NCBI RefSeq assembly: GCF_001543325.1
Contig: NZ_CP013355.1
Coordinates: 1,580,001-1,644,000 of the forward strand
Source of the DNA: Lutibacter profundi
GTDB taxonomy: Bacteria; Bacteroidota; Bacteroidia; Flavobacteriales; Flavobacteriaceae
Length of the DNA: 64,000 bases
Direction: 5' to 3'
The first letter of the stretch is position 1. The number at the start of each line of letters is the position of its first letter. The translations under genes and the position numbers were made by a program. The notes under the pieces were generated by a model. It ran no database searches and was not told where the DNA came from. It worked only from the letters and a program-made list of their open reading frames with translations. This document shows, piece by piece, positions 9,984 through 59,661 of this stretch.

Positions 9984-9985
9984 CT

Positions 9986-10023: not shown

Positions 10024-10039
10024 AGCTTAACAAAACACC

Positions 10040-10405: not shown

Positions 10406-10421
10406 GGCTTAACAAAACACC

Positions 10422-10706
10422 ATGGCTTACGTTTATATTTTACATTCAGCTTCTACAAACCATTATTATACTGGCAGTTGTAAAAATTTGACTTCTCGTT
10501 TAAGGGAACACCGTACACACATATACACTAATAGTTTTACAGCCAGAGCATCAGATTGGAAGGTCTTTTTAGTTATTGAAAATTTAGAATATCTACAAAG
10601 TAGAAAAATTGAAAATCATATCAAAAGAATGAAAAGTAAAATCTTCATAGAAAATTTAAAAAAGTATCCAGAACTTATTCAAAAATTAAAAATAAAATAC
10701 TCCTAA
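10422..10706 (+). CDS. GIY-YIG nuclease family protein, copy B
   Basis: Tandem duplicate of the gene at 10040, offset by 382 bases. The proteins are identical except Asn to Ile in the ENHNK/ENHIK segment; one further base change is silent. Near identity implies a recent duplication or gene conversion. All GIY-YIG motif residues seen in copy A are kept, so both copies should be functional. Confidence 0.85.
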   Translation: MAYVYILHSASTNHYYTGSCKNLTSRLREHRTHIYTNSFTARASDWKVFLVIENLEYLQSRKIENHIKRMKSKIFIENLKKYPELIQKLKIKYS

Positions 10707-10787
10707 ACGGGTTCATTCCGATAGCTATCGGAACCCGTCTTCAGTACTAAAAACTCTTGTTAATCATTTGATTTTCAAGAGTTTTTT
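10707..10787 (+). repeat. Repeat of tRNA-Leu 3' end with palindrome in the T-loop, unit 2
   Basis: Second copy of the unit at 10325, behind the second GIY-YIG gene, with the same 18 bp palindrome at 10716-10733. It then runs CCCGTCTTCAGTACTAAAAA and a degenerate terminator with a T-run. It has one extra A and one C-to-T change relative to unit 1, so it has begun to diverge. Confidence 0.83.
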
Positions 10788-35225: not shown

Positions 35226-35396
35226 GATTACCTTGCTTTTGGTTCAACAAGAAATACTTCTAAAAAGAACTGTTATAACAGTATAATTTATAATGCAAGA
35301 AATTGAAAAATAACAAGAGTATTGTATCAATACCTTGCAAGATGTTCATCGTATTAAATTTACGAAATTTTTGAACAAAATGCAATAAACAGGCAA

Positions 35397-35428
35397 AAAA
35401 AGACTCATTTAAGCGGATGAGTCTTTTT
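35397..35428 (-). terminator. Terminator after tonB paralog 2
   Basis: A perfect 12 bp stem (AAAAAGACTCAT / ATGAGTCTTTTT) around an 8-base loop; on the minus strand it ends in a U-rich arm, 24 bases after the stop of the middle tonB gene. It shows that the three tonB genes are separately terminated. Confidence 0.75.
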
Positions 35429-35451
35429 AAATAACTTATAAAATTTTATTG

Positions 35452-36174
35452 CTATTCTACTTTAAATGCAATTGGCAAGCTGTACTTTACACTAACAGGA
35501 ATTTTACGCTGCATTCCTGGTTCCATTTTAGGCAATAACTTTACAATTCTAATAGCTTCTTCCTTTAACTTTTTATGAGGTGCTCGAGCCTGTATATTTG
35601 TAATATCTCCATTTCTATCAATTTTAAATAGTACAAAAATACGTTTTACTCCAGGTGTTAAACCAAGTTCAGATGCTAACCCTGAATTAAAATTTCTATA
35701 TATATGTTTTGTGATTTTTTCTTGTAAACAAGCCCTTAACTGATCCTTATCTCCTTTACAACCTGGATAAACTGGAACGTCTTCAATAATTGCAAAAGGC
35801 ACATCTTCAAGAACCTCATCAGTATTACCTGAATCAACATCAATAAACCCTAAGTCATCAATAGGTTCGCTTGTATCAATATCTTTAAGTGTTGTTTCTA
35901 TAAAATCGGAGTCATCATCCTTCTTTTGAATATCAATTAAAATTACTTTTTTAGGAAGTGGTTGTTTAATTTTGGGTTCAATCTCATATATAATATTTGA
36001 CTCTGGATTAAAAGCGTCTTCTCTACCAGTATCGCTTAAAATAGCTATTTCTTTTTCAAAAGTTTTGTTTTGTATTAATACATATACGACAAGTAAAGAT
36101 AAAACAAGTCCTAATTGTACAAATAATTTACTGTAATTTTCTAAATTTGCATTTGGGTGTTTTTTTGTATTCAT
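35452..36174 (-). CDS. TonB family energy transducer, paralog 2
   Basis: A 240-residue TonB paralog, same layout as its neighbours: NTKKHPNANLENYSK, a membrane helix (LFVQLGLVLSLLVVYVLI), an Asp/Glu/Ser linker and the TonB C-domain with PVYPGCKGDKDQLRACLQ and RIFVLFKIDRNGDITNIQAR. It has little Pro in the linker. The three genes are the result of tandem duplication and have diverged mainly in the linker. It ends in its own terminator. Confidence 0.88.
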   Translation of the reverse strand: MNTKKHPNANLENYSKLFVQLGLVLSLLVVYVLIQNKTFEKEIAILSDTGREDAFNPESNIIYEIEPKIKQPLPKKVILIDIQKKDDDSDFIETTLKDIDTSEPIDDLGFIDVDSGNTDEVLEDVPFAIIEDVPVYPGCKGDKDQLRACLQEKITKHIYRNFNSGLASELGLTPGVKRIFVLFKIDRNGDITNIQARAPHKKLKEEAIRIVKLLPKMEPGMQRKIPVSVKYSLPIAFKVE

Positions 36175-36317
36175 AATTTTATCCGTTTTATTTCATCCTT
36201 TTTAAGAGCATGTTATTTGAAATTAATTGTTTTGAGTGGTATTAAGATTTTTAGTTTTTAACAACTCTTATCAAGGACAAATGTTAAAATTATGTTAATG
36301 CAATAAACAGGCCAAAA

Positions 36318-36347
36318 AAAAAGCTCAACCAAATGGTTGAGCTTTTT
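36318..36347 (-). terminator. Terminator after tonB paralog 3
   Basis: A 14 bp perfect stem (AAAAAGCTCAACCA and its complement) with a 2-base loop and an A-tract on the plus strand that becomes the U-tract for the minus-strand transcript, 19 bases after the stop of the third tonB gene. Confidence 0.78.
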
Positions 36348-36366
36348 AATTATAATTTTCTAATAT

Positions 36367-37086
36367 TTATTCTACTTTAAATGCAATTGGCAAACTATAT
36401 TTTACTCCTACAGGTCTTCCTCGTTGTTTTCCAGGAATCATTTTAGGTAGTAATTTTATAACTCTAATTGCTTCAGCTTGTAATCTTTTATGAGGTGCAC
36501 GCGCCATTACATTGGTAATATTTCCATTTTTATCAATTTTAAACATCACAAAAATACGCTTAACCCCTGGTGACAAACCTAAATCTGACGCTAAATCAGA
36601 ATTAAATTTCCTATTTACATGCTTTGTTATTTTTTCTTGCAAACAGGCTCTTAATTTTGCTTTATTTCCTTTACAGCCAGGATAAACAGGAACATCTTCA
36701 ATAATTGCAAAAGGCACATCTTCCATTACATCTTCATCTTCTTCAACATCAACTATTTCTTCAACTTCAACAGCGTCATCTTCATCAGTTTCAGTAGACT
36801 CTATAACTGTTTCTTCAACTTCTTTTTCATCCTCTACAATTTCAATCTTATCAGGAGTTGGTGGTGGTGGTGCTTTTTGTTCTGGTGGAGGTGGTGGTGC
36901 AATTTCAATTGTTTGTTCATCATCTTCAGCGTTTAAAACAACTGGACCAAGATCACCAATTACTCTATCATACGTCTTTTTTTCAATGGCTAAATATACC
37001 ACTAATAGTGCTAAAACTAAACCTAATTGCATAAACAACTTGCTGTAGTTTTCTAGATTTGCTTTTGGACTTTTTTTAACTTCCAT
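36367..37086 (-). CDS. TonB family energy transducer, paralog 3 (Pro-rich linker)
   Basis: A 239-residue TonB protein and the most canonical of the three. After the membrane helix (LFMQLGLVLALLVVYLAI) it has a classical Pro-rich stretch (APPPPPEQKAPPPPTP) followed by a very acidic run (VEEIVDVEEDEDVMED), then the C-domain with PVYPGCKGNKAKLRACLQ. It is probably the ancestor-like copy, since the Pro-rich spacer is usual in TonB; this ordering is inference. Confidence 0.9.
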   Translation of the reverse strand: MEVKKSPKANLENYSKLFMQLGLVLALLVVYLAIEKKTYDRVIGDLGPVVLNAEDDEQTIEIAPPPPPEQKAPPPPTPDKIEIVEDEKEVEETVIESTETDEDDAVEVEEIVDVEEDEDVMEDVPFAIIEDVPVYPGCKGNKAKLRACLQEKITKHVNRKFNSDLASDLGLSPGVKRIFVMFKIDKNGNITNVMARAPHKRLQAEAIRVIKLLPKMIPGKQRGRPVGVKYSLPIAFKVE

Positions 37087-45580: not shown

Positions 45581-47857
45581 TTATTGCTTTTTACTGTTTT
45601 CTTGAGCGTCTACCACAGCCACACAAACCATATTTACAATTTCATCTACACTAGATCCTAAATGTAAAATATGTGCTGGTTTTTTTAACCCCATAACAAC
45701 TGGGCCTATTGATTCTACATTATTTAATCTCTTGATTAGCTTGTAGCTAATATTTGCTGAATTTAAGTTTGGGAAAATTAATCCATTTACTTTTTTATTA
45801 AGTAATTTGGTGAAAGGAAATTTTTCATCTCTTAATTCTCTACTCAATGCAAAATCTGCTTGAATTTCACCATCAATAATAATTTCAGGATAGTGTTTAT
45901 GAAGGTAATCTACGGCATTTGAAGCTTTTGTTGCTGATTTTGATTGTGCGGAACCAAAATTTGAATATGATAACATCGCTAAATTAGGTTCAACACCAAA
46001 AATTTTCATTACTTCAGCTGTCATTCTTGCAATTTGAACCAATTCTTCTTGAGTTGGATTTATATTGAAAGCTGTGTCAGAGAAAAACATGGGTCCTCGC
46101 TCAGTCATCATAATATTAGTTGCAGCAACTCTAAGTACTCCTTCTGCTTTTCCTATCAATTCAATTATTGGTTTTGCAACAGTAGGGTAACTGCGTGAAT
46201 AACCTGTAACTAGCGAGTCTGCTTCTCCTTCATTTACCATCATTGCTGCAAAATAATTACGCTCTCGCATCCATTTTTGTGCATCTAACAATGAAATCCC
46301 TTTGCGTTTTCTCTTTTCCCAGTATACTTTAGCGAAACGATTTCTCCTTTCTTTTTCTTCAGCAGATTTTGGGTCTATTATTTTAACATCTCCTTCAAAA
46401 TTAATCTCAGCCATTAATTCTTTGATAATTTTTTTATCACCTAATAAAATTGGAATTCCAATTCCATCTTCATAAACAATATGTGCCGCTTTTAAAACAT
46501 CAAAGTGATCTGCTTCAGCAAAAACAACAGTTTTAGGGTTTGATTTAGCACGTGAAGTAAGCATCCTCATTAATTTATTCCCTGTTCCTAATCTTTCTGC
46601 TAACTCTTCTTCATAAGCTTCCCAATCTTTTATTGGCTCTTTTGCCACACCTGATTCCATTGCTGCTTTTGCAACCGCTGGAGGAACTTTAGTTATAAGT
46701 CTATTATCAAATGGTGTAGGTATAATATATTCTCTTCCAAATTGGATATTGGTTTTCCCGTAGGTTATATTTACATGTTCTGGTACTGTTTCTTTCGCTA
46801 AATCAGCCAATGCATGAACAGCCGCAATTTTCATTTCTTCATTAATTGCTGTTGCTTTAACATCTAAAGCTCCTCTAAAAATAAATGGAAATCCTAATAC
46901 ATTATTTACCTGGTTAGGATTATCTGATCTTCCGGTAGCCATAATAATATCTTTTCTTGTTTCTACAGCTAATTTATATTCAATCTCAGGAGTTGGATTT
47001 GCCATTGCAAAAACTATTGGATCTTTTGCCATAGTTAATAGCATTTTTGGCGTTACAAGATTTCCTTTTGATAAACCAATAAATACATCTGACCCATCCA
47101 TTGCCTCTTCCAATGTGTAAATATCTCTAGCTGTTGCAAATTCGGCTTTTTGACTACTTAGATTTTTAATGTCTTTTCTAATTACTCCTTTGCTATCACA
47201 CATAACAATATTTTCTCTTTTTACACCAATTGCTATATATAAACGTGAACAAGAAATTGCTGCTGCACCAGCACCACTTACTACAATTTTAACTTTTGAA
47301 ATATCTTTTTTTGCAATTTCAACTGCGTTTTTTAAGGCAGCAGCTGAGATTATTGCTGTTCCGTGCTGATCGTCATGCATTACAGGAATATCTAATTCCT
47401 CTTTTAATCTACGTTCAATTTCAAAAGCTTCTGGAGCTTTGATATCTTCTAAATTAATTCCTCCAAAAGTTGGTGAAATATTTTTAACCGTTTCTACAAA
47501 TTTATCTACATCAGTAGTGTCAACTTCAATATCAAAAACGTCAATTCCAGCAAATATTTTAAATAATAATCCTTTACCTTCCATGACTGGTTTTCCAGCT
47601 AATGCTCCAATATTTCCCAATCCTAAAACTGCTGTTCCATTTGAAATAACAGCCACTAAGTTTCCTTTTGAAGTATATTTATAAGCATTATTCGGGTCCT
47701 TCTCAATTTCTAAACAAGGTATAGCAACGCCCGGCGTATAAGCCAATGATAAATCTTTTTGGGTTGCGTGTTTTTTGGTTGGAATTACTTGAATTTTACC
47801 TGGAGATGGTTTTGCATGATACAATAACGCTTCTCTTCTTAATTTAGAATCACTCAT
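45581..47857 (-). CDS. maeB: NADP-dependent malic enzyme with phosphotransacetylase-like C-terminus
   Basis: A 758-residue MaeB-type enzyme: decarboxylates malate to pyruvate with NADP. The malic domain (1-430) has AKPSPGKIQVIPTKK, the AYTPGVA start, VISNGTAVLGLGNIG and MATGRSDNPNQVNNV. The C-terminal part (430-758) is the regulatory phosphotransacetylase-like domain with SRSYPTV and HILHLGSSVDEIVNM. I place the start at 47857 because SDSKLRREALLYH is the conserved N-terminus; a longer frame to 47917 adds 20 unrelated residues beyond the promoter region. It precedes ruvA by 39 bases. Confidence 0.94.
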   Translation of the reverse strand: MSDSKLRREALLYHAKPSPGKIQVIPTKKHATQKDLSLAYTPGVAIPCLEIEKDPNNAYKYTSKGNLVAVISNGTAVLGLGNIGALAGKPVMEGKGLLFKIFAGIDVFDIEVDTTDVDKFVETVKNISPTFGGINLEDIKAPEAFEIERRLKEELDIPVMHDDQHGTAIISAAALKNAVEIAKKDISKVKIVVSGAGAAAISCSRLYIAIGVKRENIVMCDSKGVIRKDIKNLSSQKAEFATARDIYTLEEAMDGSDVFIGLSKGNLVTPKMLLTMAKDPIVFAMANPTPEIEYKLAVETRKDIIMATGRSDNPNQVNNVLGFPFIFRGALDVKATAINEEMKIAAVHALADLAKETVPEHVNITYGKTNIQFGREYIIPTPFDNRLITKVPPAVAKAAMESGVAKEPIKDWEAYEEELAERLGTGNKLMRMLTSRAKSNPKTVVFAEADHFDVLKAAHIVYEDGIGIPILLGDKKIIKELMAEINFEGDVKIIDPKSAEEKERRNRFAKVYWEKRKRKGISLLDAQKWMRERNYFAAMMVNEGEADSLVTGYSRSYPTVAKPIIELIGKAEGVLRVAATNIMMTERGPMFFSDTAFNINPTQEELVQIARMTAEVMKIFGVEPNLAMLSYSNFGSAQSKSATKASNAVDYLHKHYPEIIIDGEIQADFALSRELRDEKFPFTKLLNKKVNGLIFPNLNSANISYKLIKRLNNVESIGPVVMGLKKPAHILHLGSSVDEIVNMVCVAVVDAQENSKKQ

Positions 47858-47889
47858 AATAGTTATAATTTCGTATAAAATACTGAGTA

Positions 47890-47918
47890 CAAAGTTAACT
47901 ATAATTAAAAGAAACAAA
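47890..47918 (-). promoter_or_regulatory. Promoter of the maeB-ruvA-sprA region
   Basis: On the minus strand TTTG (47915-47918), a 17-base spacer, then TAACTTTG (47890-47897): both elements are perfect Bacteroidetes consensus. It lies 33 bases before the chosen maeB start, which supports that start over the longer frame. Confidence 0.7.
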
Positions 47919-48003
47919 AGCTAACATTTATCATATTATTAAAAACAAATGTTACATTAATATGTGAAACAGTTATACAAAAAAGACATATTAAGTTTTA
48001 AAC

Positions 48004-48134
48004 GAGGCTGTCTGAAAAGCAATTATACTTGTCATTTTGAATAAAGTGAAAAATCTCAACATCTTGATATATAAGTGTTTAATTTCAAGAAGATTCTTCA
48101 TTTACATTCAGAATGACACTTTTTAGACAGCCTC
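48004..48134. repeat. MITE-like interspersed repeat, copy 3 (inverted)
   Basis: The same element as at 2969 and 6574, but in reverse orientation, bounded by GAGGCTGTCT and AGACAGCCTC. Minor substitutions distinguish it (GAATAAAGTG for GAACAAAGTG, AAGAAGATTC for AAGGAGATTC). It stands between maeB and the 42 bp remnant of the molybdoenzyme 3' end. Confidence 0.75.
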
Positions 48135-48150
48135 ATTCTTTTTTATTCTC

Positions 48151-48192
48151 ATCAATATAGTAAACAGATTCATCTGGTTTGAAGGCTCTATT
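48151..48192 (-). pseudogene. 42 bp remnant/duplicate of the molybdoenzyme gene 3' end
   Basis: These 42 bases are identical to 56773-56814, inside the last codons of the molybdopterin oxidoreductase gene (encoding RAFKPDESVYYID). Past the match the minus-strand frame continues as ENKKE and a stop, whereas the intact gene ends KEK and a stop. On the 5' side a stop codon (48193-48195) cuts the frame. Orientation is the same as the intact gene. It borders the maltose cassette on its far side, as expected if an insertion at the gene's 3' end left the original end here. Confidence 0.75.
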
Positions 48193-48249
48193 TTAGAACT
48201 AATTAATCTTTTTCTTTATAAAACATAAACGTCAATTGAAAAAAGTAAT

Positions 48250-50502
48250 TTAATTAACCTCTATTAAATTGTTGTTAACACAAATTTTTAAAGGTTGCCC
48301 ATCTATCAATTTAATTTCAATTGTATTTGTCTCAAGATTACAATTTAAAACTCTATTTTTAAAATTTATTCTAAAATTTAAGCTTTCCCAGTTTTTTGGT
48401 AAATTAGGTCTAAAACTCAATTCCCCATTAATTACGCGCATACCTGCAAAACCAAATACAATAGACATCCAAGAACCTCCCATACAGGCAGTATGAATAC
48501 CATTTTCAGTATTGTGATGTAAATTATCGATATCTAATCTTGATGTATTCATAAAATAATCATATGCTTCTTTATATTTGCCAATTCTATTTGCCATAAT
48601 ACTAAAAATACAGGTTGACAGGGAAGAGTCATGAGTTGTAATTTTTTCATAATAATTGTAATCATTCTTTATAAATTCTAATTCTGTTTCTCCTTCAAGT
48701 AAGAAATGCCCTAATATTGTATCTGCTTGTTTGCAAACTTGGTGTCTGTATAAAGTTAAAGGGTGATAATTTAATAATAATGGATAGTTTTCTTTTGGAG
48801 TATTTTCAAAATCCCATACTTTTTTATTGAAAAAACTATCATCTTGTGGGTGTAATTTTCTCTCCTTGTCAAAAGGCAAGTACATTTTATTTCCTGCTTT
48901 TTCAAAATTAATTAATTCCTCTTCATTGAATTTTATTTTATTGGAAATTTTTTCCAACTCACCCTTGTGAGTTTCTTTAATGCTATTCCAAATAGCCCCT
49001 ATTTTATCAAAAAGATTTTTGGTAAGTACATTAGTATAGTAATTATTATTTACAATACAAGTATACTCATCTGGGCCAGTTACGGCATCAATACAAAATT
49101 TACCATCATTCCTAAAATGACCTATGTGATACATTAATCTGGCCATTTCAGCTAACATTTCCATACCTTTTTCTATCATGAAACCAATATCTTCGGTTAC
49201 CTCAAAATATTGAATTATTGAATATGCTATATCTACATTAATATGATATTGTGCAGTTCCGGCTGGAAAAAAAGGAGAGCATTCGTTACCTGAAATTGTT
49301 CTCCAAGGGTAAAGCGCCCCAGTGGTATGCCCCATTTGTTTTGCTCTTTTACGGGCATAATCTAAAATTGTATACCTATAGTTTAATAAGTTTTTTGCCA
49401 AATTTGGATTGGTGAATAGGAAAAAAGGGAAAATATAAATTTCTGTATCCCAAAAATAATGCCCTTCATATCCTTCTCCCGAAAGTCCTTTTGCCGAAAT
49501 ATTACTCCACTGGTCTTTCCCTGTAGATTGCAATAAATGAAATATATTAAAACGAATAGCTTGTTGCATTTTCTCATCGCCATTAATTTCAATGTTAGAT
49601 GATTTCCAAAAATCATTTAAATATTCCTCTTGTAAAAAAGCAAAATGATTAAAATCGTACGTTAAAACACTGTTTAAAATTTCAACATTTTTAGATATTT
49701 CATTTTTATATCTAATTGTATCTGTATAAACAGCATATTTTGTGAAAATATTTTTTTTTCCTTGAAGCAAACTTCCTTTAATAAAATGATTGCTGTTTTT
49801 TTGTTCTGTTAAAATTGATTCTATAAATTCTTTAGGGTATTTATGTGCAATTCCTGAAACAACAATTAAATTAGAGTTTTTTGTTTTTGCTTCTATAAAC
49901 GAACAATTGTTTTCTTGCTTTACATTTATAACTTTAAGAGCCTTTGCATTTGCAGAACCAACTCGTGGATCTTCTTCAACAATAATATTACTTACATCGC
50001 CATCTATTTTAGAAACAATTTCAATTACACCATCAAAATTTAGTGCTTCAACCTCCATTTGAATTAAAAAAAGTTCTTTTTGAATGAATGATATTAACCT
50101 TTTAAACTCTATATGAATTTCATTTCCTTTTGGAGACCTCCAATGTACCTTCCTTGTTGCTATGCCTTTTTTAAAATTCAACTCTCTTTCAAATGACAAG
50201 ACTTCTCCTTTATCTAATGAAAACTCTTCTTCATTAATTCTGATTTTTATTCCCTGAGTATCAATAACATTTAAAATACTTTCGCTATTATTAGGGAAAC
50301 CATGTAGTTTTTCTCCATAAATGATTTCTTCTTTTTCATAAAAACCATTTATATATGTTCCTCTAACGGTTAAAATTTCTTTATTTAATCCTTCTTCGAA
50401 ACTTCCTCTTACTCCTAAATAGCCATTTGCTACACTAAAAAGAGTTTCTTTTAGTTGATACGATTCTTTATAATTACTATCTTTTAAAATCCAACTATTC
50501 AT
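48250..50502 (-). CDS. Glycoside hydrolase family 65 phosphorylase (maltose phosphorylase-like)
   Basis: A 750-residue GH65 enzyme with an N-terminal beta-sandwich and an (alpha/alpha)6 barrel. The general acid is Glu479 in GPDEYTCIVNNNYYTN; other family signatures are GEGYEGHYFWDTEIYI and YPWRTISGNECSPFFPAGTAQYHIN. GH65 members phosphorolyse alpha-glucobioses (maltose, trehalose, kojibiose, nigerose) to glucose and beta-glucose-1-phosphate. The adjacent beta-phosphoglucomutase takes that product, which supports phosphorolysis. No signal peptide, so it is cytoplasmic. Maltose is the likeliest substrate, but specificity inside GH65 is not decided by these motifs. Confidence 0.9.
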   Translation of the reverse strand: MNSWILKDSNYKESYQLKETLFSVANGYLGVRGSFEEGLNKEILTVRGTYINGFYEKEEIIYGEKLHGFPNNSESILNVIDTQGIKIRINEEEFSLDKGEVLSFERELNFKKGIATRKVHWRSPKGNEIHIEFKRLISFIQKELFLIQMEVEALNFDGVIEIVSKIDGDVSNIIVEEDPRVGSANAKALKVINVKQENNCSFIEAKTKNSNLIVVSGIAHKYPKEFIESILTEQKNSNHFIKGSLLQGKKNIFTKYAVYTDTIRYKNEISKNVEILNSVLTYDFNHFAFLQEEYLNDFWKSSNIEINGDEKMQQAIRFNIFHLLQSTGKDQWSNISAKGLSGEGYEGHYFWDTEIYIFPFFLFTNPNLAKNLLNYRYTILDYARKRAKQMGHTTGALYPWRTISGNECSPFFPAGTAQYHINVDIAYSIIQYFEVTEDIGFMIEKGMEMLAEMARLMYHIGHFRNDGKFCIDAVTGPDEYTCIVNNNYYTNVLTKNLFDKIGAIWNSIKETHKGELEKISNKIKFNEEELINFEKAGNKMYLPFDKERKLHPQDDSFFNKKVWDFENTPKENYPLLLNYHPLTLYRHQVCKQADTILGHFLLEGETELEFIKNDYNYYEKITTHDSSLSTCIFSIMANRIGKYKEAYDYFMNTSRLDIDNLHHNTENGIHTACMGGSWMSIVFGFAGMRVINGELSFRPNLPKNWESLNFRINFKNRVLNCNLETNTIEIKLIDGQPLKICVNNNLIEVN

Positions 50503-50506
50503 TTGT

Positions 50507-51151
50507 CTAAATATTTTGTATTATTTCTAATTTTAAAAAATTTGTACTTTCTAAAACAACCTCTGCCTTTCCTAAAACCTCTTTAGAACCTATACCTATG
50601 GCTTTCATTCCAGCCTTATGAGCAGCTTCAATTCCAGATGAAGCATCTTCAATTACTATACACTCATTAGGAGTTAGCCCTAGTTCTTTAGCTACATATA
50701 GAAATAAATCTGGAGCTGGTTTAGCCTTTTTAACTGAGTTTCCATCTCCAATTACATTAAAAAAAGGAGTTGCTTCTAACCTTTCCAATACTGATAAAGC
50801 ATTTTTACTTGCAGAACCCAATCCTATTTTAATATTAGATGCCTGTAATTCTTGTAAAAATTTCTTTATTCTAGGTAAATAATCTTTTTGAGTAATTTTT
50901 TTAAGATATTGTAAATAATAATTATTTTTACGCTCCAAACAATCTTTCTGTTTTGTTTTAGAAAAAGTTGTATTGTTATGTTTTAGAATTCTATCAAGTG
51001 ATTTTGCACGTGAGACTCCTTTTAATTTTTCATTTAGCAGCTTATCAAAATTTAGTCGTTCTTCATTACTTAATTGTTTCCATGATAAATAATGAAATTC
51101 TGCGGTATCAGTAATTACACCGTCCAAATCAAATATTATTCCTTTAATCAT
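50507..51151 (-). CDS. pgmB: Beta-phosphoglucomutase
   Basis: A 214-residue HAD-superfamily enzyme that converts beta-glucose-1-phosphate to glucose-6-phosphate. The nucleophile motif is FDLDGVITDTAEFHYLSWKQL (Asp nucleophile and acid/base), motif II is LGSASKNA, and the last motif is VIEDASSGIEAAHKAGM. The early HYLSWK segment is typical of beta-PGM rather than other HAD phosphatases. It starts 11 bases after the MFS gene and ends 4 bases before the GH65 gene: one operon for phosphorolytic disaccharide use. Confidence 0.93.
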   Translation of the reverse strand: MIKGIIFDLDGVITDTAEFHYLSWKQLSNEERLNFDKLLNEKLKGVSRAKSLDRILKHNNTTFSKTKQKDCLERKNNYYLQYLKKITQKDYLPRIKKFLQELQASNIKIGLGSASKNALSVLERLEATPFFNVIGDGNSVKKAKPAPDLFLYVAKELGLTPNECIVIEDASSGIEAAHKAGMKAIGIGSKEVLGKAEVVLESTNFLKLEIIQNI

Positions 51152-51162
51152 GCTATGAATGT

Positions 51163-52392
51163 TTAATAAATATTAGCTTTTGATTTATTTGTTAACCTGT
51201 ACAGAACCATTATTGAAACTAATAATAAAGCCATTGGAATTAATGTGTAGAAAAATGCTGATTTAGCACCAAAATTTTTAAATAACCACCCTATAAAAGT
51301 TGATCCTGAAGTGCCTCCAAGTGCTGAAAAAACAACTATTAAGCCTGTCATTGGGCTATGTAATTTTTTAGGTAAAGCACTTAAAACTGATGAATTTAAT
51401 AATGGATAAATTGGAGCTATAAATACTCCTACAATAGGGAAAGCATATCCTATTAACGGAATATCTTTGATTGAATTAATCACACTAACCTCAGCTTCAA
51501 TAGTTTTTGGCAAGACAAAAATTACCATTAACATTGCTACTACAATGCAAAATGATAAAATGTAAAACCATGAAATGTATTTAGATACTATACCCGCACC
51601 AATTCTACCAACTGCTAAAGACAACGCAAAAATACTTGCCATCATAATACTAACATTTGAAGGGAGCTGCAAAACACGATTGTAAAATGTAGGTAACCAA
51701 GTCATAATGCCTTGCTCAACCATTACAAATAAAAATGCACTGCAAATAAAAATTATTACCAATATTTTTGAACAAAGCATTATCATTTGCTTTATATCAT
51801 CCAATAGATTTACACCTGGTATTTCATTCCCTTCATCAAACTTTGTAAAATATAACAATACAAATGAAATAAAAGTTAATCCTGCTAATAACCAATAAAC
51901 TCGTAGCCATGCATCTGGATCTTCATTTGAATTAAACGCAGGGAATAAAAAATAAGCTAAGGCAATTCCAATCATAAAAACCCCTTCAATAGAACTCATA
52001 AAGCTGTTGTGTTCTTTAGGGCTATCTGTTAAAAGGCCTATAACTGAGTACACGGAAACTTTAATTAATGCAAAGGAAATTCCAACAGATGCAAATAATA
52101 TTTTGGCTGTCCAAAAAGAATTACCAAAATACATATAAACACAAGCGAACATAGATAACGTTAATGCTATTAACATAGATTTTTTATATCCAATTCTTGG
52201 TAAAAATGATGCTACAACAAACGACACTATTGCTATTGGCAAATCCTTAAACCACTCTAAAACACTTGCTTGAACCTCGTTAACGCCATAATTTTCTAAA
52301 GATTTTAAAATTACAATTCCAACGCTATTTAATAAAATAGCAAAAACAAAGTAATTTAAATATAATGATATTTTTATTCCAATATTCTTCAT
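51163..52392 (-). CDS. MFS sugar transporter
   Basis: A 409-residue major facilitator with 12 membrane helices; between helices two and three is SFLPRIGYKKSML, the MFS loop motif. It most likely imports maltose or another disaccharide across the inner membrane for the GH65/pgmB pair that follows on the same strand. Substrate assignment is by context only. Its 5' flank is a 372-base gap after the TonB-dependent receptor gene. Confidence 0.85.
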   Translation of the reverse strand: MKNIGIKISLYLNYFVFAILLNSVGIVILKSLENYGVNEVQASVLEWFKDLPIAIVSFVVASFLPRIGYKKSMLIALTLSMFACVYMYFGNSFWTAKILFASVGISFALIKVSVYSVIGLLTDSPKEHNSFMSSIEGVFMIGIALAYFLFPAFNSNEDPDAWLRVYWLLAGLTFISFVLLYFTKFDEGNEIPGVNLLDDIKQMIMLCSKILVIIFICSAFLFVMVEQGIMTWLPTFYNRVLQLPSNVSIMMASIFALSLAVGRIGAGIVSKYISWFYILSFCIVVAMLMVIFVLPKTIEAEVSVINSIKDIPLIGYAFPIVGVFIAPIYPLLNSSVLSALPKKLHSPMTGLIVVFSALGGTSGSTFIGWLFKNFGAKSAFFYTLIPMALLLVSIMVLYRLTNKSKANIY

Positions 52393-52715
52393 TTAAAACA
52401 AGTTAATTATTGATTTTAAAAATCTGTTGTGCATTTTAAATAATATTAATTCTAATATAGTTAATGTTTCTCCCAAAAATAAACTTGTATATGTGTTGAG
52501 CTTCAGTTAATGTAATGATTTTGGGGATATTCTAATTCTAAACAGGCTCTAAATGTTGATTTTTTTTATATTTTTTTCAATAATTACAACATGTTCTTTT
52601 GTGATTTAATACACTTATAAACAACGCTTTATGTATAAAATAATTCACTAATTACTTATAGTAATAACTACTTTTTTTATTAAATTATAATACACAACGG
52701 GTTTTAGAAATAAAA
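52393..52715. other. Non-coding gap between receptor and transporter operon
   Basis: AT-rich spacer containing the unidentified promoter of the MFS-pgmB-GH65 operon. No further open frame, RNA fold or LacI-type operator like that at 55458 is visible here. The terminator of the receptor gene closes its right side. Confidence 0.5.
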
Positions 52716-52757
52716 ATTTACTGCATTTATAAATTTCATAATGTAAATGCAGTAAAT
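52716..52757 (-). terminator. Terminator of the TonB-dependent receptor gene
   Basis: A perfect 14 bp stem (ATTTACTGCATTTA at 52716-52729 and its complement at 52744-52757) with a 14-base loop, 7 bases after the receptor stop. On the minus strand the arm is followed by TTTTATTT. It separates receptor and transporter transcripts, although both belong to one pathway. Confidence 0.75.
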
Positions 52758-52764
52758 AGTTTTT

Positions 52765-55377
52765 TTAGAAATTAATTGCAACAGACAATCTTACCGATCT
52801 CCCTAAAATTGATCTTCCTAAAAATACTGCTCCATTTGCTGGTGCTCCTCCATCTCCTTCAGTAAGACCTATTGTATTAAATAGGTTTGCTGCATCTAAA
52901 GCAAATCTCAAATTATTAACTTTATAAGACGCTCCTGCATTTACAACTCCAAATTCTGGTAATTCAAATGTATTTCCTATATCGTTATATTTTTTACCAA
53001 AATATGAGTATTTTGCATATACATTAAATTTGTCTGAGATGTTATAATCTGGTCTAAAATTAAAATATACTTTTGAAATTCTCCTAGCTAAATTACCATT
53101 AAGTGACGCCTGAGACCCCTCATAACCACTATACTCAGGATTTTGAATTGTTCCATTAAAATTTAAATTAAATTTACCCATTTTCAAAATAGCTTCTAAC
53201 TCTAATCCAATGTTATTCACATTAGCAAACTTTCTTTCAGAAACTCCTCCCTCTCTTATATCTTGATAGGTAACATTATCCAATTTCATATAAAATGCAT
53301 TCGCAAATAAAGCTAATTTTTCTGAAGAATATTTAAACCCAAGCTCAGATTGATTAACTTTAGTTGGTTCTAATTCTGCAAGAGCTGCATTACCTTGCCC
53401 ACTTTCAACTGCAACATAAAAAGCTTCTTCAATTGGAGATCTAAACCCGTGGCTATATCTCACATAAGACGCTACATTATCACTAAATTTATAATTTGCT
53501 GCAGCAGTATATGACAATTCACTTACATCATAATCCCAATAAACGTAGTTTCCTGTTAAAATATTTACTCCATTATCAGCATTGTTATTTGGTAAAACTC
53601 CTATATCATTTCCCCAAGTACCGTGATCTCCTGATCCCGCATATTTGTCGCTATCGTAACGAAACCCAATATTTAAAGTTAAATCTTCGCTTGCATCTAT
53701 TTCAGCATCAACATAAATAGCATTTAATGTCCCTTTAATTTCAGACTCTCTTTGCAACCAAGAGATTCCTGAAATACCACGATATGTGTATTCTATATTT
53801 GAATTAGTATCTACTAAATTCACCAATCTACCTTCATCTTCAACACTTGCTAAAAAGCTACTCCAATTCCAATTTTGTTTTGATTTCCAATTCGAATAAT
53901 AATATCCTACATTTAGGTTTACTTTGTCTAGGTTAAAATTAAATGCCAAGTTATTGGCAAAATTATCCATCTTCTTTCTGATATTCCAAAAATCAGCTCT
54001 TTTTAAGTTAGTATTAGCATTTAAAGTTGCTCCTCCGTTATTATATGTAAATAAAGCATCACTAGGGTTAATACCTAAACCTGTTGCGTAATCTGCTTGA
54101 CTTGTTACTCCACCCATCCAAGCTGCAGCAAATATTGCATTATAATCTAAATCAATATTGGTTGATTTAAAGCTATTTTTTACAGAAACAATGTCAGATA
54201 ATTCATATTTAAATTCACCACCTACTGCAGTTGTTTTAGGGTGAATACCGTCTTCTAAGTCTGCTTTAAAAAATCCTCCTCCTCCTTGAGGTATATTAAT
54301 ATTAGCCATTTCTCGGTTAGCAAAAGTCCCATAATTAGCATCAAATCCTGAAAATTCTTTTACTTTATTTCCATCTTTTACAAATGGTGTAGATTGGTAA
54401 AAAATTGTTCTGTCATTTAAGTTTTTATAATTAATACGTGCATACCCTTTGTCAAATTTGTATGTTACATTTAGCTTAACCTGACCTCCATTGTTTGCTT
54501 TGTATCCTGGATCTCTAATACCATCATCAACTCTATAGAATCCACCAACATTAAAAAATAATTTATCTTCAACAATGGCTCCTCCTAAGTTGAAATCTGT
54601 TCTAAATAACCCGTAATCACCAACAGTTAATTTAGTGGTTCCTTCAAACTCATTTTGCCCTGTTTTAGATATAAAATTGATAATACCACCTGGTGCTCCT
54701 GATGCATAAATAGATGCTGACCCCCCTTTAATCGCCTCTAATCTTTTTACAGTTGCATCTACTCTTTGAAAATTATCAATATTTGCAAACTGTAATGCTC
54801 CATCTTCAAAAATTGGTAATCCGTCTTCTTGAAATTGTACATACTCATAGGCACCTGCAGTTGGAATTCCACGAGCAAATAAATTATTCCCTGTTTCTCC
54901 TCCAGAGGTTTCAACTAAAAACCCTGGTATTGATTGCAAAAGATCTGCAGTACTTTGAGGTGATCTTTCTTCAATTTGTTTTGCGCTCATTGTAGTAACA
55001 GCAATGCTTGATTCTAGTTTTGTTTTAGGATTTGATGATCCTGTAACAATTACTTCATCAAGAGATAATAAATCTTCTTGCAAAATAAAATTTTGAATCT
55101 CATTTTCACCATCCAGCGTAATCTGATGACTTACAGATTTATAACCTACAAATGATGCAGTAACAACGTATGTCCCATTTGAAACACCTGTTATTTCATA
55201 TTTCCCATTAAAATTAGAAGATGCTCCTTGACTCGCTCCTTCAATAATAATACTTACCCCAGGCAAAGGTTGATTTAAAGCATCAGTAATTATCCCTGAT
55301 ATCGTACCTGTCTGTTGTCCTATTGCATTAGTAATAGCAAATAAAGCAAAGACTGTTAAACATAAAAATTTTTTCAT
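52765..55377 (-). CDS. TonB-dependent receptor (alpha-glucan/maltose uptake likely)
   Basis: An 870-residue outer-membrane receptor: signal peptide (KKFLCLTVFALFAITNAIGQ), carboxypeptidase-D-like domain (about 22-105, GTISGIITDALNQPLPGVSIII), plug (about 120-235, with DEVIVTGSSNPKTKLESSIAV, the TonB-box region) and a 22-strand barrel ending VRLSVAINF. It is shorter than SusC proteins and has no SusD partner gene, so it is a stand-alone receptor. The shared LacI operators and neighbours suggest maltose or maltodextrin as ligand. Confidence 0.88.
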   Translation of the reverse strand: MKKFLCLTVFALFAITNAIGQQTGTISGIITDALNQPLPGVSIIIEGASQGASSNFNGKYEITGVSNGTYVVTASFVGYKSVSHQITLDGENEIQNFILQEDLLSLDEVIVTGSSNPKTKLESSIAVTTMSAKQIEERSPQSTADLLQSIPGFLVETSGGETGNNLFARGIPTAGAYEYVQFQEDGLPIFEDGALQFANIDNFQRVDATVKRLEAIKGGSASIYASGAPGGIINFISKTGQNEFEGTTKLTVGDYGLFRTDFNLGGAIVEDKLFFNVGGFYRVDDGIRDPGYKANNGGQVKLNVTYKFDKGYARINYKNLNDRTIFYQSTPFVKDGNKVKEFSGFDANYGTFANREMANINIPQGGGGFFKADLEDGIHPKTTAVGGEFKYELSDIVSVKNSFKSTNIDLDYNAIFAAAWMGGVTSQADYATGLGINPSDALFTYNNGGATLNANTNLKRADFWNIRKKMDNFANNLAFNFNLDKVNLNVGYYYSNWKSKQNWNWSSFLASVEDEGRLVNLVDTNSNIEYTYRGISGISWLQRESEIKGTLNAIYVDAEIDASEDLTLNIGFRYDSDKYAGSGDHGTWGNDIGVLPNNNADNGVNILTGNYVYWDYDVSELSYTAAANYKFSDNVASYVRYSHGFRSPIEEAFYVAVESGQGNAALAELEPTKVNQSELGFKYSSEKLALFANAFYMKLDNVTYQDIREGGVSERKFANVNNIGLELEAILKMGKFNLNFNGTIQNPEYSGYEGSQASLNGNLARRISKVYFNFRPDYNISDKFNVYAKYSYFGKKYNDIGNTFELPEFGVVNAGASYKVNNLRFALDAANLFNTIGLTEGDGGAPANGAVFLGRSILGRSVRLSVAINF

Positions 55378-55457
55378 CTTTTATTAATTTAGTTTAAATA
55401 ATTTGATTTACTTTTTAAAAGTAGTCACATTTCACACAGCTCATTCTCGTTTTTTTT

Positions 55458-55499
55458 ACGAAATCGATTGCGAAAACTACGAAATCGATTGCGAAAACT
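55458..55499. promoter_or_regulatory. Two tandem LacI-type operators
   Basis: A 21 bp unit with core AAATCGATTGCG is repeated perfectly in tandem (55458-55478 and 55479-55499), 80 bases before the receptor start and 100 bases before divergent lacI. The core's imperfect dyad around CGAT resembles LacI/GalR-family operators. The regulator encoded next door is the natural candidate. Exact repetition at 21 bp, two helical turns, places both sites on the same DNA face. Confidence 0.7.
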
Positions 55500-55599
55500 T
55501 TTTTACTATTTTAAAATTATAAAGATTTAAACAAGTATTAAATTTTCAATTATAAAAAGTTAATAAATTATCCTAATTTAGAGCAATTATTTTTTTTAG

Positions 55600-56619
55600 A
55601 TGAAGCCAATTACCTTAAAAGACATTGCGTTAAAATTAAATATTTCAGTAACAACGGTTTCTAAAGCATTACAAGGCCGAAGAGATGTTAGCAAATCAAC
55701 ACGCCAATCAGTTGTTGATTTAGCTGAAGAAATGAATTATGTCCCAAATTCAGTAGCTGTTAACTTAAGAACACAGCAAACTAAAACTATTGGGGTTATT
55801 ATTCCAACTGTTGTTCATCAATTTTTTTCCAAAGTAATTGATGGTGTAATTGAGGAAGCGGAGAAGCAAGGATACTTAGTAATAACATTACAATCAAATG
55901 AAAATTTTGAGTTTGAAAAAAAACAGTTACAATTATTAATGCAAAAAAGAGTTGATGGAATTCTAATTTCCCTCTCTAATGAAACTCAGCATTGTAATCA
56001 TTTAAATGAAATAATCAAAAATGAAATTCCTATAGTTCTTTTTGATAAAATTTATAAGCTCGCCAATTGCTCTAAAGTGTATATTGATGATCAACAAGCG
56101 GCGTATAATGCGGTCACTAGTTTAATTAAAAAAGGATACAAACGAATTGCACATTTTAGAGGTTCATTAACACCTCAAAACTCAATTGATCGATTTTTAG
56201 GTTATAAAAGGGCACTTACAGATAACGATATTGAATTTGATGCTTCACTTGTATATTTATGTAATAACAATGATGATTTCAATGATGGTTATAACAATGC
56301 TAATAAATTATTAATAGAACAAAATAATGTTGATGCTATTTTTGCTATTACTGATCTTATTGCCGTAGGGATACTCAAATGTTTTAATGAAAAAGGAATT
56401 AAAATCCCTAAAGATATTGCAGTATTTGGGTTTAGTGACTGGTTTATGGCATCTGTAGTTACCCCTTCTTTGTCTTCTGTAAAACAACCTAGTTTTGAAA
56501 TGGGTAGAAAAGCTACTGAAATTTTAATTGATGAAATTAAAAACCTCAATAAGAATATTTCATATTCATTTCAAAATGTAGTTTTACCTACAACTTTAGC
56601 TATTAGAGATTCTATTTAA
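55600..56619 (+). CDS. LacI/GalR family transcriptional regulator
   Basis: A 339-residue regulator: N-terminal LacI helix-turn-helix and hinge (ITLKDIALKLNISVTTVSKAL, VVDLAEEMNYVPNSVAVNLR), then a periplasmic-binding-protein-like effector domain (TIGVIIPTVVHQFFSKVIDG, DAIFAITDLIAVGILKCF, FGFSDWFMASVVTP). It is transcribed divergently from the receptor gene, with the tandem operators between them, and probably controls the maltose cassette including itself. Effector unknown, likely a sugar or sugar phosphate. Confidence 0.92.
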   Translation: MKPITLKDIALKLNISVTTVSKALQGRRDVSKSTRQSVVDLAEEMNYVPNSVAVNLRTQQTKTIGVIIPTVVHQFFSKVIDGVIEEAEKQGYLVITLQSNENFEFEKKQLQLLMQKRVDGILISLSNETQHCNHLNEIIKNEIPIVLFDKIYKLANCSKVYIDDQQAAYNAVTSLIKKGYKRIAHFRGSLTPQNSIDRFLGYKRALTDNDIEFDASLVYLCNNNDDFNDGYNNANKLLIEQNNVDAIFAITDLIAVGILKCFNEKGIKIPKDIAVFGFSDWFMASVVTPSLSSVKQPSFEMGRKATEILIDEIKNLNKNISYSFQNVVLPTTLAIRDSI

Positions 56620-56732
56620 TTATTATTGAAGTTTTCGAAAATAAAGATTAAAAACAGACTTAAAATAATTCACTTTTAAATATTTATGCATTTTCAACTT
56701 TTTAAAAAGTCTCTATTAAAATCAATTAAAAA

Positions 56733-56754
56733 AAATCCCGCTGCAGCGGGATTT
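56733..56754 (-). terminator. Terminator of the molybdoenzyme operon
   Basis: A perfect 22-base palindromic hairpin (AAATCCCGC-TGCA and complement), 6 bases after the oxidoreductase stop; A-tracts on both sides give U-tracts in either direction, so it may also stop lacI transcription. It lies outside the 42 bp repeated segment, on the cassette side. Confidence 0.8.
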
Positions 56755-56760
56755 AAGTTC

Positions 56761-59661
56761 TTATTTCTCCTTATCAATATAGTAAACAGATTCATCTGGT
56801 TTGAAGGCTCTATTAAACCACAATGGTCTTCGTTCTCCATTTGGTCCTGGTGCAGGGCGCGTCATTGCTAACCATTCTTTATATACTTCATGAGATTTAT
56901 TAGTATCAACAAAAATATCTCCATATTTTTCGTCCTTTCCAGGTTTTTCAATTCGTACTCGTTGATGCCAAGTGTGCATACCACTAATTGGATCTGGATG
57001 TACGGCATGTGTAATGTTTTGATGTACACCACCATCTTTCCAAAAAATACGTTTCGAATCTTTGTCGCTCGATTCAAATGGTTTAATCCCTGAAATGGTA
57101 TTCATTTTCCAAACTCCCTTACCATCAGTTTCAATATTTACGGTATTGGTTGCCCAACGATTTCCTGTTTTGTCTTGGGATCTTCTCCAACGTCCAATAT
57201 GATGTGAACAGGCAACTACACCTGGTTTCATACTTTGCGTTACCCAAACTTTATCAATAAAATAACCAATATCGGTATTTAACTTCACCAAATCACCTGT
57301 TTGGAATCCCCATTTCTTAGCATCATCTGGGTGCATCCAAATTGGGTTTCTATTGGAAATTTCAACCAACCATTTTGCATTTCCAGAGCGTGAATGAATT
57401 AATGTTGGTAATCTAAATGTAGGAACCAACACATATTCTCCTTTTGACTTATCCAATACATCATTATGAATATGACTTTTAATATACGTTGGTGTAGCAT
57501 ACTCCGGCCATTTCCAATCTACCATAGTTTGTGAATAAAACTCGTTTTTACGAGATGGCGTTGGGAAACCTACACAAGGTTTGCCTTTTATCATGACCCC
57601 AATAGGTTTGCCATTTTTTGAAATTACATCATTAGTTGGGTCTACTTTAGTTCCTTTTAGTTGTTCTTCACTTAATAAATTTTCATTCATTTTATAAGAC
57701 TCTCCTTTTTCAATTTCATAAGCACCGTACTTTTTCATGTATTCTAATGCTGCAAATTGTCCAGTAAATCCGTCTGCTTTTGCAGTTTCATTCAACCCTT
57801 TAATTCTTTCAAAAATATATTGGTAATATTCATCTATTGTAATTTTTTCTCCTGGTCTGTACGGAGATTCAAATGTTTTACGAATTCCCATACTTCCATC
57901 AGGATCAATTCTCCAAGATAATTCTATAAAAAATTCATCTTCTTCCCAAACTTCACCCGGATTTGCTTCATAGGTTAATTTTACTGGTTTGCCATTTCTA
58001 CGTGCAGCCTCTCTTAATACTGGCTGACGGAATGCTACCCAAGTTCCGCCATGTGTTGCGTAACTATTTAAATCGTGACGCTCTGATGCCAATCCCATTG
58101 GCAACACAAAATCTGCATAAAAAGCAGTTTCGTTCCAAGTTGGAGTTAACGCAGCATGGAGTCCAAATTTTGTTTCATCAGAAAACATTTCCATCCAAGT
58201 AAATCCATCAGGATATGTCCAAACTGGATTAAATACTCGTGAAAAATACACATCCATTTTACCTCTTCCTTCTTTTAAGAAATGTGGTAATAACTGACTC
58301 ATTTCAAAAAATGCTAATGGATATTCTTTTGGGAAATGTAATTCATTCCATTTTTTCTGAGGTGCTGGCGGATTTGGTTGTGTTGGCTTGAATTTGTTCC
58401 AAGAATTTGGAGATGTTCCTCCCTTGGCACCAACTGCTCCAGTTAAAACAGTTAGAAAATGTAAACAACGAGCTACTGCCCAACCTCCTAGGTTTGAAGC
58501 GCCTGCTGCTCGCCAGTTATGAGATGCAAAACGTTCACCTGCTTCCCCAATTTTATGCGCTATTTCAACAATCATTTCAGCTTTAACACCCGATTCTTTC
58601 TCTGCATATTCAGGAGTAAATTCTTTATACTCTTCTATCATTTCAGCAATATAATTCTCAAAAGTTATTTCTTTATCTGAATGTCTTGCTTGTAAATATT
58701 CTTTCCAGTTAGTCCAATTTTCCAGATATTCTCTATTGTACAATCCTTCTTCCAAAATAATTAAAGCCATGGCTAATAAAACAGCAGCTTCAGTTCCTGG
58801 ATAAGAAGGCAACCAATAATCGGACATACTCGCAGTGTTTGATAAACGAGGATCCATGGTTGCTAATTTGGCTCCCTTCATTTTGCCTTCAATAATACGT
58901 TGTGCATGCGGATTGAAATAATGTCCAGACTCTAAATGTGCAGAAATCAATAATATAAATTTTGCTTCAGCGTGATCTGGTGATGGTCTGTCATACCCAT
59001 ACCATAAATTATATCCAAAACGAGCTCCTGAAGAACAAATATTGGTATGTGAGTTATGCCCATCAATTCCCCAACCTTGTAAAATCCAGTTCATAAATTT
59101 TTCATTTCCTGGTCTTCCTACGTGGTAGGCAATTTCATTGTGACGATCTTCAAGAATTGCTTTTCTTATACGAGCCGCAATAGTATCTAAAACTTCATCC
59201 CAAGAAACACGTTCCCACTCACCGTCTCCTCGCTTTCCCTTTCTCTTTAAAGGAAATAAAATTCTATCTGGATCTGTAACTTGATTTATGGTAGCAGGTC
59301 CTTTTGCACAATTTCTTCCTCTACTTCCGGGGTGATACGGATTTCCTTCAAACTTTTTAACTTCTTGTGTTTCTTTATCTATAAAAGCTGTTAAACCACA
59401 AGCACTTTCACAGTTAAAACACGTTGTTGGTATAATTTGATAGGTCTTTTTTTCTTTTCTAGGCCATACTTTTGGATTGTATTCAACCCAATTATCCCAT
59501 TTTTCTGGTGGTGGGAAATTTTCATATAGTTGCGCAACCTCCTCATCTGAAAATTGACGCATATCGCCATCAAATTCTTGATAACCCTCTTTGTGCAGAT
59601 TTGGAATAATTCCTAATTTTTCTGCTATATTTTCTATAAACGATGGTTTTTTATAACCCAT
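56761..59661 (-). CDS. Molybdopterin oxidoreductase, catalytic subunit (DMSO reductase family, SoeA/PsrA-like)
   Basis: A 966-residue Mo-bis-MGD enzyme. The FS0 [4Fe-4S] ligands are Cys81, Cys84, Cys88 (TTCFNCESACGL) and Cys118 (GRNCAKG); the probable Mo ligand is Cys209 in NICSSGARFG. No Tat signal precedes them, so the enzyme should face the cytoplasm, as in the sulfite dehydrogenase SoeA. The N-terminal 75 residues are an extra non-catalytic extension. Substrate cannot be read from sequence: sulfite, polysulfide, thiosulfate or another oxyanion are possible. Its last 14 codons occur again at 48151. It follows the FeS/NrfD subunit gene by 16 bases. Confidence 0.85.
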   Translation of the reverse strand: MGYKKPSFIENIAEKLGIIPNLHKEGYQEFDGDMRQFSDEEVAQLYENFPPPEKWDNWVEYNPKVWPRKEKKTYQIIPTTCFNCESACGLTAFIDKETQEVKKFEGNPYHPGSRGRNCAKGPATINQVTDPDRILFPLKRKGKRGDGEWERVSWDEVLDTIAARIRKAILEDRHNEIAYHVGRPGNEKFMNWILQGWGIDGHNSHTNICSSGARFGYNLWYGYDRPSPDHAEAKFILLISAHLESGHYFNPHAQRIIEGKMKGAKLATMDPRLSNTASMSDYWLPSYPGTEAAVLLAMALIILEEGLYNREYLENWTNWKEYLQARHSDKEITFENYIAEMIEEYKEFTPEYAEKESGVKAEMIVEIAHKIGEAGERFASHNWRAAGASNLGGWAVARCLHFLTVLTGAVGAKGGTSPNSWNKFKPTQPNPPAPQKKWNELHFPKEYPLAFFEMSQLLPHFLKEGRGKMDVYFSRVFNPVWTYPDGFTWMEMFSDETKFGLHAALTPTWNETAFYADFVLPMGLASERHDLNSYATHGGTWVAFRQPVLREAARRNGKPVKLTYEANPGEVWEEDEFFIELSWRIDPDGSMGIRKTFESPYRPGEKITIDEYYQYIFERIKGLNETAKADGFTGQFAALEYMKKYGAYEIEKGESYKMNENLLSEEQLKGTKVDPTNDVISKNGKPIGVMIKGKPCVGFPTPSRKNEFYSQTMVDWKWPEYATPTYIKSHIHNDVLDKSKGEYVLVPTFRLPTLIHSRSGNAKWLVEISNRNPIWMHPDDAKKWGFQTGDLVKLNTDIGYFIDKVWVTQSMKPGVVACSHHIGRWRRSQDKTGNRWATNTVNIETDGKGVWKMNTISGIKPFESSDKDSKRIFWKDGGVHQNITHAVHPDPISGMHTWHQRVRIEKPGKDEKYGDIFVDTNKSHEVYKEWLAMTRPAPGPNGERRPLWFNRAFKPDESVYYIDKEK

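Follow-up and report, generated by a model that had tools for sequence, protein, structure and literature searches.

Two versions of a molybdopterin oxidoreductase gene end flank a sugar cassette in Lutibacter profundi: a candidate recombination scar

The locus and its two gene ends

The window, a stretch of 64,000 nucleotides from Lutibacter profundi (genome G000 in the comparisons below), is part of a single contig of 2,966,978 bases. It carries a five-gene sugar cassette between moOR, a complete molybdopterin oxidoreductase gene, and maeB, a gene of malic-enzyme type. The cassette is bracketed by two exact 42-bp copies of the moOR 3′ end, each of which continues into its own tail and stop codon. 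On balance, we lean towards reading these copies as the scar of a recombination between two chromosome types. From left to right, the parts of the locus are as follows:

45581..47860, minus strand: maeB, malic-enzyme type, left border of the interval (named from an earlier, preliminary description and the sequence)
47861..48003, minus strand: maeB upstream region, partly conserved with other Lutibacter
48004..48134: palindromic repeat of 131 bp, resembling a miniature inverted-repeat transposable element (MITE)
48133..48150, minus strand: tail of copy B, E-N-K-K-E codons and a TGA stop whose last two bases are shared with the abutting palindromic repeat
48151..48192, minus strand: repeat copy B, 42 bp, remnant of a moOR 3′ end
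48193..48249: spacer of 57 bp between GH65 and the remnant; its junction with copy B is the proposed non-homologous joint
48250..50502, minus strand: GH65 glycoside phosphorylase, probably a trehalose phosphorylase (family search, PDB match, residues)
50507..51151, minus strand: pgmB, beta-phosphoglucomutase (match over the curated cut-off)
51163..52392, minus strand: MFS transporter (family search)
52765..55377, minus strand: TonB-dependent receptor (family search)
55600..56619, plus strand: lacI-family regulator (family search)
56734..56753, minus strand: terminator-like hairpin behind moOR (by eye; a similar hairpin lies behind moOR in many relatives)
56761..56772, minus strand: tail of copy A, K-E-K codons and stop
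56773..56814, minus strand: repeat copy A, 42 bp, inside the moOR 3′ end
56761..59661, minus strand: moOR, 966 aa (open reading frame and family searches)

The two copies match exactly and in direct orientation, and when they are stretched to 57 nucleotides they remain 93% identical, with all four mismatches falling within the 15 tail bases. Copy A lies within moOR and is followed by the KEK codons, the stop, and the hairpin. Copy B lies between GH65 and maeB and is followed by the ENKKE codons, the stop, the palindromic repeat, and the maeB upstream region. The gene thus ends in DKEK-stop and the remnant in DENKKE-stop. From base composition, about 3e-14 exact direct repeats of at least 42 bp are expected in the window, which excludes a chance origin. 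At up to three mismatches, the 40-base core of the repeat occurs in two places on the whole contig. When the window and 20 further 20-kb stretches of the genome were each scanned singly, the exact direct repeats of at least 30 bp were the A/B pair, the palindromic-repeat copies, two copies of a gene downstream of a tRNA, and, in one stretch (L292), repeats confined to about 2 kb.

The preliminary description of this DNA had reported the 42-bp identity, the five genes between the copies, the diverging tails, and the lack of an integrase in the cassette. Sequence comparison, open reading frames, and family searches confirm each of these points, and none of the five proteins contains a recombinase domain. 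Its proposal that an old moOR end was left beside maeB also stands. Copy B looks like a second version of the moOR gene end, resembling that of a cassette-free chromosome, because it has its own tail and in-frame stop and then enters the maeB promoter region. B-side DNA is 83% alike over 75 bp to the junction in G020, a relative in which maeB follows moOR with no cassette between them; G034 and G031 are about equal. The locus therefore shows two features of an insertion-duplication: a partial duplication of the moOR end flanks the insert, with intact moOR on one side, and the remnant tail and the DNA downstream of it are of the cassette-free type.

Cargo of the cassette

Although the preliminary description called this a maltose cassette, its cargo is more likely for trehalose, to judge from the GH65 residues and from the trehalase that takes the place of GH65 in relatives. 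Family searches identify the cassette proteins as GH65, beta-phosphoglucomutase, MFS, TonB receptor, and LacI. The cassette GH65 lacks the HNE loop and reads SPF there, whereas the other GH65 of the genome has the loop and matches maltose phosphorylase 1h54 with 754 bits. In the available portion of one study, the HNE loop is the maltose phosphorylase motif, and TRIGPP at positions 64, 392, 394, 402, 416, and 585 is the motif of one tested trehalose phosphorylase (PMC8537180). Pairwise alignment with 3wiq gives matches at R392, I394, and P585, with P416 matching only by loop reading; position 64 is S (assigned by hand) and position 402 is P. The best PDB match of the cassette enzyme is a kojibiose phosphorylase (361 bits), followed by maltose phosphorylase (329 bits).

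In the relatives G023 and G004 the MFS gene is followed by a Pfam trehalase, and in G008 and G030 by a similar-looking gene. In G029, G013, G033, and G012 it is followed by a GH65 with 69–72% identity to that of the cassette. A trehalose module of lacI, TonB receptor, MFS, and trehalase lies beside maeB in G023, which is a Lutibacter, and in G284, which belongs to another genus; in both, lacI, receptor, and MFS are ordered and oriented as in the cassette. L. profundi and a second genome, G016, instead have pgmB and GH65 where those modules have trehalase (by Pfam in G023, by eye in G284). A growth test of LP1 was negative for both maltose and trehalose use, and the same paper, in the part available, predicts the use of both (PMC5219744).

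The moOR–maeB interval in relatives

The interval between moOR and maeB is a variable site in Lutibacter, empty in some genomes and filled with sugar modules in others. The genus sample comprises 38 genomes, 29 of which have moOR, and the DNA downstream of moOR was compared in these 29 as 30 sequences (G020 is represented by two contigs). At the empty junctions maeB follows moOR after 158 and 161 bp (the two G020 contigs), 188 bp (G019), 314 bp (G003), and 321 bp (G036). The preliminary description had expected cassette-free relatives of this layout with a single ENKKE-type moOR end; the layout is found in these four genomes, but no strain with such an end is among the genomes surveyed. In the remaining genomes with a measurable distance, 1–41 kb separate the two genes, and this space holds queG-like or phosphatase-like genes, large SusCD-type loci, or sugar modules (contents mostly read by eye).

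The cassette MFS gene is present in 11 of the 38 genomes. It shares one contig with both moOR and maeB in L. profundi, G004, G008, G012, and G023. Linkage is to the moOR side only in G033 and G029, the latter having maeB on a separate contig with no sugar genes within 7.5 kb; it is to the maeB side only in G011, and G013 shows no linkage. G030 has no moOR match, and a small moaD-like gene (by eye) directly adjoins the lacI of its trehalose module (L126).

Searches with each genome's own moOR end found no repeat in the four other full genomes with a readable interval (G004, G008, G012, and G023). Sugar genes without the repeat, which the preliminary description regarded as speaking against its view if they were the rule in relatives, thus occur in these four, though not in all relatives. 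A search with the last 25 residues of moOR likewise detected the remnant in L. profundi and G016 only. Own-end searches of the other moOR sequences gave no such remnant, the interval being incomplete in G016, G033, G029, G013, and G021. Among 80 loci retrieved with moOR from a second collection, many with little downstream DNA and four without a usable gene end, maeB was in reach in eight, all on contigs that match those of genomes already surveyed in length.

The gene end itself is also variable. Compared with 29 other moOR ends, the core of the L. profundi repeat matches 15 at the gene end with 6–13 edits, fails to match 13 within 13 edits, and matches one only elsewhere. Six end types, assigned by eye in 24 genomes, require nine changes on the rpoB tree against a possible minimum of five; such switching between close relatives fits gene ends that travel with neighboring DNA. 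Behind moOR, the empty relatives G020, G019, and G036 carry a terminator-like hairpin, and their tails are of other types; for this reason they were set aside as products of excision between the repeats.

Two further arrangements were seen at moOR ends. In G017 (L058), an IS1634-family transposase gene is flanked by direct repeats, at least 74 bp long, which take in the moOR end and terminator; 94 bases can be read up to a run of N. In G005 (L054) and G032 (L056), the moOR frame is fused to a dispersed repeat of about 100 bp, which gives it the tail SITNFDTQRNE, and a similar sequence lies behind GH65 in G013 (L124).

A second case in G016

A search for other cassettes at the same gene end, as the preliminary description had suggested, yields a second case in G016, a fragmented metagenome assembly that is 88% complete. 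In this genome lacI lies beside moOR on one contig, while the receptor, MFS, pgmB, and GH65 lie on another. Behind GH65 are 62 bp identical to the genome's own moOR end, followed by a different tail (NNKHE-stop versus NEK-stop at the gene). The remnant contig ends about 90 bp further on, in what we take to be sequencing adaptor, and the link to maeB is not covered by the assembly.

L. profundi and G016 have the same gene order, and their A-side tails and terminator regions align. The two genomes are unlike in the spacer behind GH65 and at the 5′ edge of the remnant, as expected of separate joints. Their repeat blocks differ by 11 edits in 40 as well as in length (42 versus 62 bp). In two species, therefore, one identical block leads to two different moOR-type tails with in-frame stops.

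Descent and age of the cassette

On an rpoB tree of 30 genomes, G016 groups with the empty G036 (support 100/100) and L. profundi with the empty G019 (95/78), and all four are grouped together (100/99). An sprA tree of 21 rows places L. profundi, G016, and the empty G020 (two rows), G019, and G036 in one group (95), with G016 beside G036 (100). The position of the repeat-bearing genomes among empty relatives favors gain by an empty line; counted on the sprA tree, a scenario of two gains is more parsimonious than one with a single gain and three losses.

The cassettes of L. profundi and G016 probably split later than the species, though not recently, judging from their fourfold-degenerate sites. 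Identity at these sites is 65% for the five cassette genes pooled (n = 758), compared with a median of 52% and a pooled value of 55% for 30 other genes; for three genes of the other GH65 locus it is 46, 35, and 49%. Under a simple model, free divergence since the cassette split would predict about 12 and about 18 differences between the repeat copies, and none is observed; the repeats have therefore undergone recombination or a new insertion in recent times.

The sugar module is probably an older neighbor of maeB than moOR is. In G284 (L305), a member of another genus in the family, maeB–ruvA is immediately preceded by lacI, receptor, MFS, and a trehalase-like gene; a queG-like gene lies on the other side of this module, and the 19 kb retrieved there hold no moOR match. 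Insertion of a cassette at the moOR end is thus not the general history of the site. The cassette receptor is 80% identical to that of G284 and 75, 74, and 73% identical to those of G023, G029, and G030, whereas the cassette lacI and MFS are closer to their Lutibacter homologs than to those of G284; the module itself is therefore mosaic.

The maeB gene of L. profundi is also mosaic. Its 3′ part (45581–46060, the last fifth) has about 65% identity to G016, G036, G019, and G020, and nucleotides 1800–2100 of the gene have 74–80% identity to G022, G006, G008, G025, and others. A foreign maeB as part of the cassette event was rejected, only the last part of the gene being of the other type.

Origin of the repeat

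A moOR end that runs into the maeB upstream region is indicative of an empty chromosome and the cassette of a full one, which would make the L. profundi chromosome a hybrid. We accordingly give somewhat better than even credence to the 42-bp repeat being a recombination scar of such a hybrid, formed without a dedicated recombinase. We infer the direction, the route, and the number of events from what the sequences show: the pair of gene ends, the existence of both empty and full layouts, the G016 case, and the lack of a repeat in four other full genomes. On the moOR side, DNA of the full type (moOR tail, terminator, and lacI through GH65) would have joined by homology within the moOR end. Behind GH65, the junction with the final codons of the resident moOR end would have formed without homology and would have left 42 bp and the resident tail beside maeB. 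The likeliest routes would be single-crossover integration of a re-circularized linear fragment or another one-sided homologous event. A similar event may have occurred in the G016 lineage, leaving 62 bp, so that hybrid formation probably took place twice. The identity of the copies could reflect recent exchange between near-identical moOR ends or conversion of the RecA type since then.

Events of this kind are known, and the locus illustrates them clearly. Among the 60 candidate clones of an Escherichia coli conjugation study, according to the part available, 56 carried a duplicate of some of the homologous gene end, as sequencing verified for 14, and four were homology-facilitated illegitimate events that involved deletions (PMC3240628). 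Single crossover of a re-circularized fragment in that system likewise leaves a truncated gene end on the far side and an intact one on the near side and uses no recombinase. As far as that account goes, 109–950 bp were duplicated and donor and recipient were known, whereas here the duplications are 42 and 62 bp, no donor was found, and the tails differ. A one-anchor model has been proposed for displaced gene ends in the effector clusters of Vibrio (PMC5361080). The type VI secretion effector modules described in the accessible sections of that paper share one homologous anchor, one non-homologous joint, and an old 3′ end displaced downstream. They differ from the present case, in which a metabolic cassette lies beside a conserved enzyme gene, the displaced end is 42–62 bp, and recipient DNA is duplicated and not deleted.

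Several observations weigh against this hybrid origin. Within each genome both blocks are of one type, whereas a cross-species donor should give a mosaic of A and B, and the blocks of other species differ from that of L. profundi by at least six edits in 40. The identical copies therefore need a donor with the same moOR end or later conversion, and no conspecific empty or full strain is among the genomes surveyed. Both B copies lack the terminator hairpin seen after moOR in the empty relatives of the group. In published cases of homology-facilitated illegitimate recombination, recipient DNA is usually deleted and not duplicated (PMC3240628). The possible anchors barely differ, with an exact-match run of at least 25 bp in 105 (moOR) versus 92 (maeB) of 171 pairs; moOR as a much better homology anchor than maeB is thus a weak proposition. 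The maeB tree places L. profundi outside its group, an effect of the final part of its maeB, which is of a different type. Finally, fourfold identity is above 65% in six of the 30 background genes, five of them apparently ribosomal or translation genes from one stretch, so the later cassette split is supported but not proved. Receptor searches of 38 genus and 397 family genomes identified no donor chromosome, and sliding identity along moOR gave no clean breakpoint in L. profundi.

Alternative explanations

A possible though doubtful alternative is one old event in the ancestor of L. profundi and G016, with the copies kept identical by conversion or repeated recombination and the cassette lost later from the empty relatives. 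The shared gene order, the aligned A-side tails and terminator regions, and the age of the sugar module as a neighbor of maeB are consistent with this explanation. The absence of the predicted differences between the copies also implies that homogenization or renewal acts on them, and a direct repeat of 42–62 bp is a plausible substrate for RecA. However, at least three losses would be needed in the empty lines (by the count on the sprA tree), none of which left a B-type scar, and those lines have terminator-like hairpins and other tails. The differing spacers and remnant 5′ edges of the two genomes are a further difficulty.

Less probable, and in our view unlikely, is a role for the moOR end as a homology docking site from which the cassette pops out and re-docks by RecA alone, with moOR intact either way.

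An integrative or cis-mobilizable element that uses the moOR 3′ end as its attachment site and has lost its integrase, or receives it in trans, is improbable; a reading of this kind was among those that the preliminary description offered. Such elements at gene 3′ ends resemble this locus in having a direct repeat at each end, one of which restores the gene; empty sites occur in relatives, and two species have the same layout. The preliminary description considered a protein-coding gene end unusual as an attachment site. Protein-gene 3′ ends such as those of icd, guaA, and prfC serve in this way, so it is not unusual in itself. The element was set aside because the five cassette proteins contain no recombinase domain, the two cases have no common core (11 edits in 40, with differing lengths), the four other readable full genomes have no repeats, and the empty relatives do not resemble excision products. 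L. profundi has four tyrosine recombinase matches; the three with listed positions are all distant from the cassette, and among the genus tyrosine recombinase matches listed, none lies between moOR and maeB (no search for serine recombinases was made). With 8000 cassette bases as the query, seven plasmid and seven phage records were retrieved, each covering at most 8% of it and the annotated ones matching GH65, pgmB, or MFS; a scan of viral contigs with the cassette receptor found no relative. Overall, the earlier interpretation is partly supported.

Local duplication of the gene end inside one genome, without a donor, is very unlikely: it would suit the 42 bp, which the two copies share exactly and which other species do not match, but in both species the remnant runs on into another moOR-type tail that ends at an in-frame stop of its own. 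For the same reason, the simple gene duplication that the preliminary description had named as a competing explanation does not apply. Least credible of all is a long target duplication by an IS1634-family transposon at the moOR end, later replaced by the cassette. The G017 arrangement lends it some substance, and elements of this type make direct repeats of 8–514 bp in the available part of one report (PMC2266710), but target duplication does not explain differing tails, and no transposase match exceeds the cut-off in L. profundi (four weak matches) or occurs in G016 (88% complete), so it was set aside.

Other features of the window

The 131-bp palindromic, MITE-like repeat has three copies in the window (2973–3103, 6578–6708, and 48004–48134). 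Its end pattern occurs at 37 places in the genome at up to three mismatches, and its DNA fold z-score is −5.9. Several copies are flanked by inverted repeats, as if they lay within terminators, and G002 and G013 have the same kind of palindromic-repeat end after the moOR stop.

Behind tRNA-Leu(taa), at 9898–10770, two near-identical genes of 94 aa (GIY-YIG-like by eye) lie in tandem with 382 bp between them. A copy of the tRNA 3′ end and a hairpin follow each gene, and the arrangement looks like small elements stacked at the tRNA end. At 34494–37086 are three adjoining, mutually similar genes of 239–243 aa (TonB-like by eye), with a 29-bp exact repeat between two of them.

Implications

Where no integrase accompanies them, direct repeats at the 3′ end of a gene are not necessarily attachment sites. 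The moOR locus suggests a route by which a catabolic module may be regained beside a conserved gene without mobile-element machinery, leaving a readable scar at the joint, and the route can be tested because two species each bear a scar of their own at this gene end. If the moOR end were instead a docking site, sugar use would be gained and lost across Lutibacter without an integrase.

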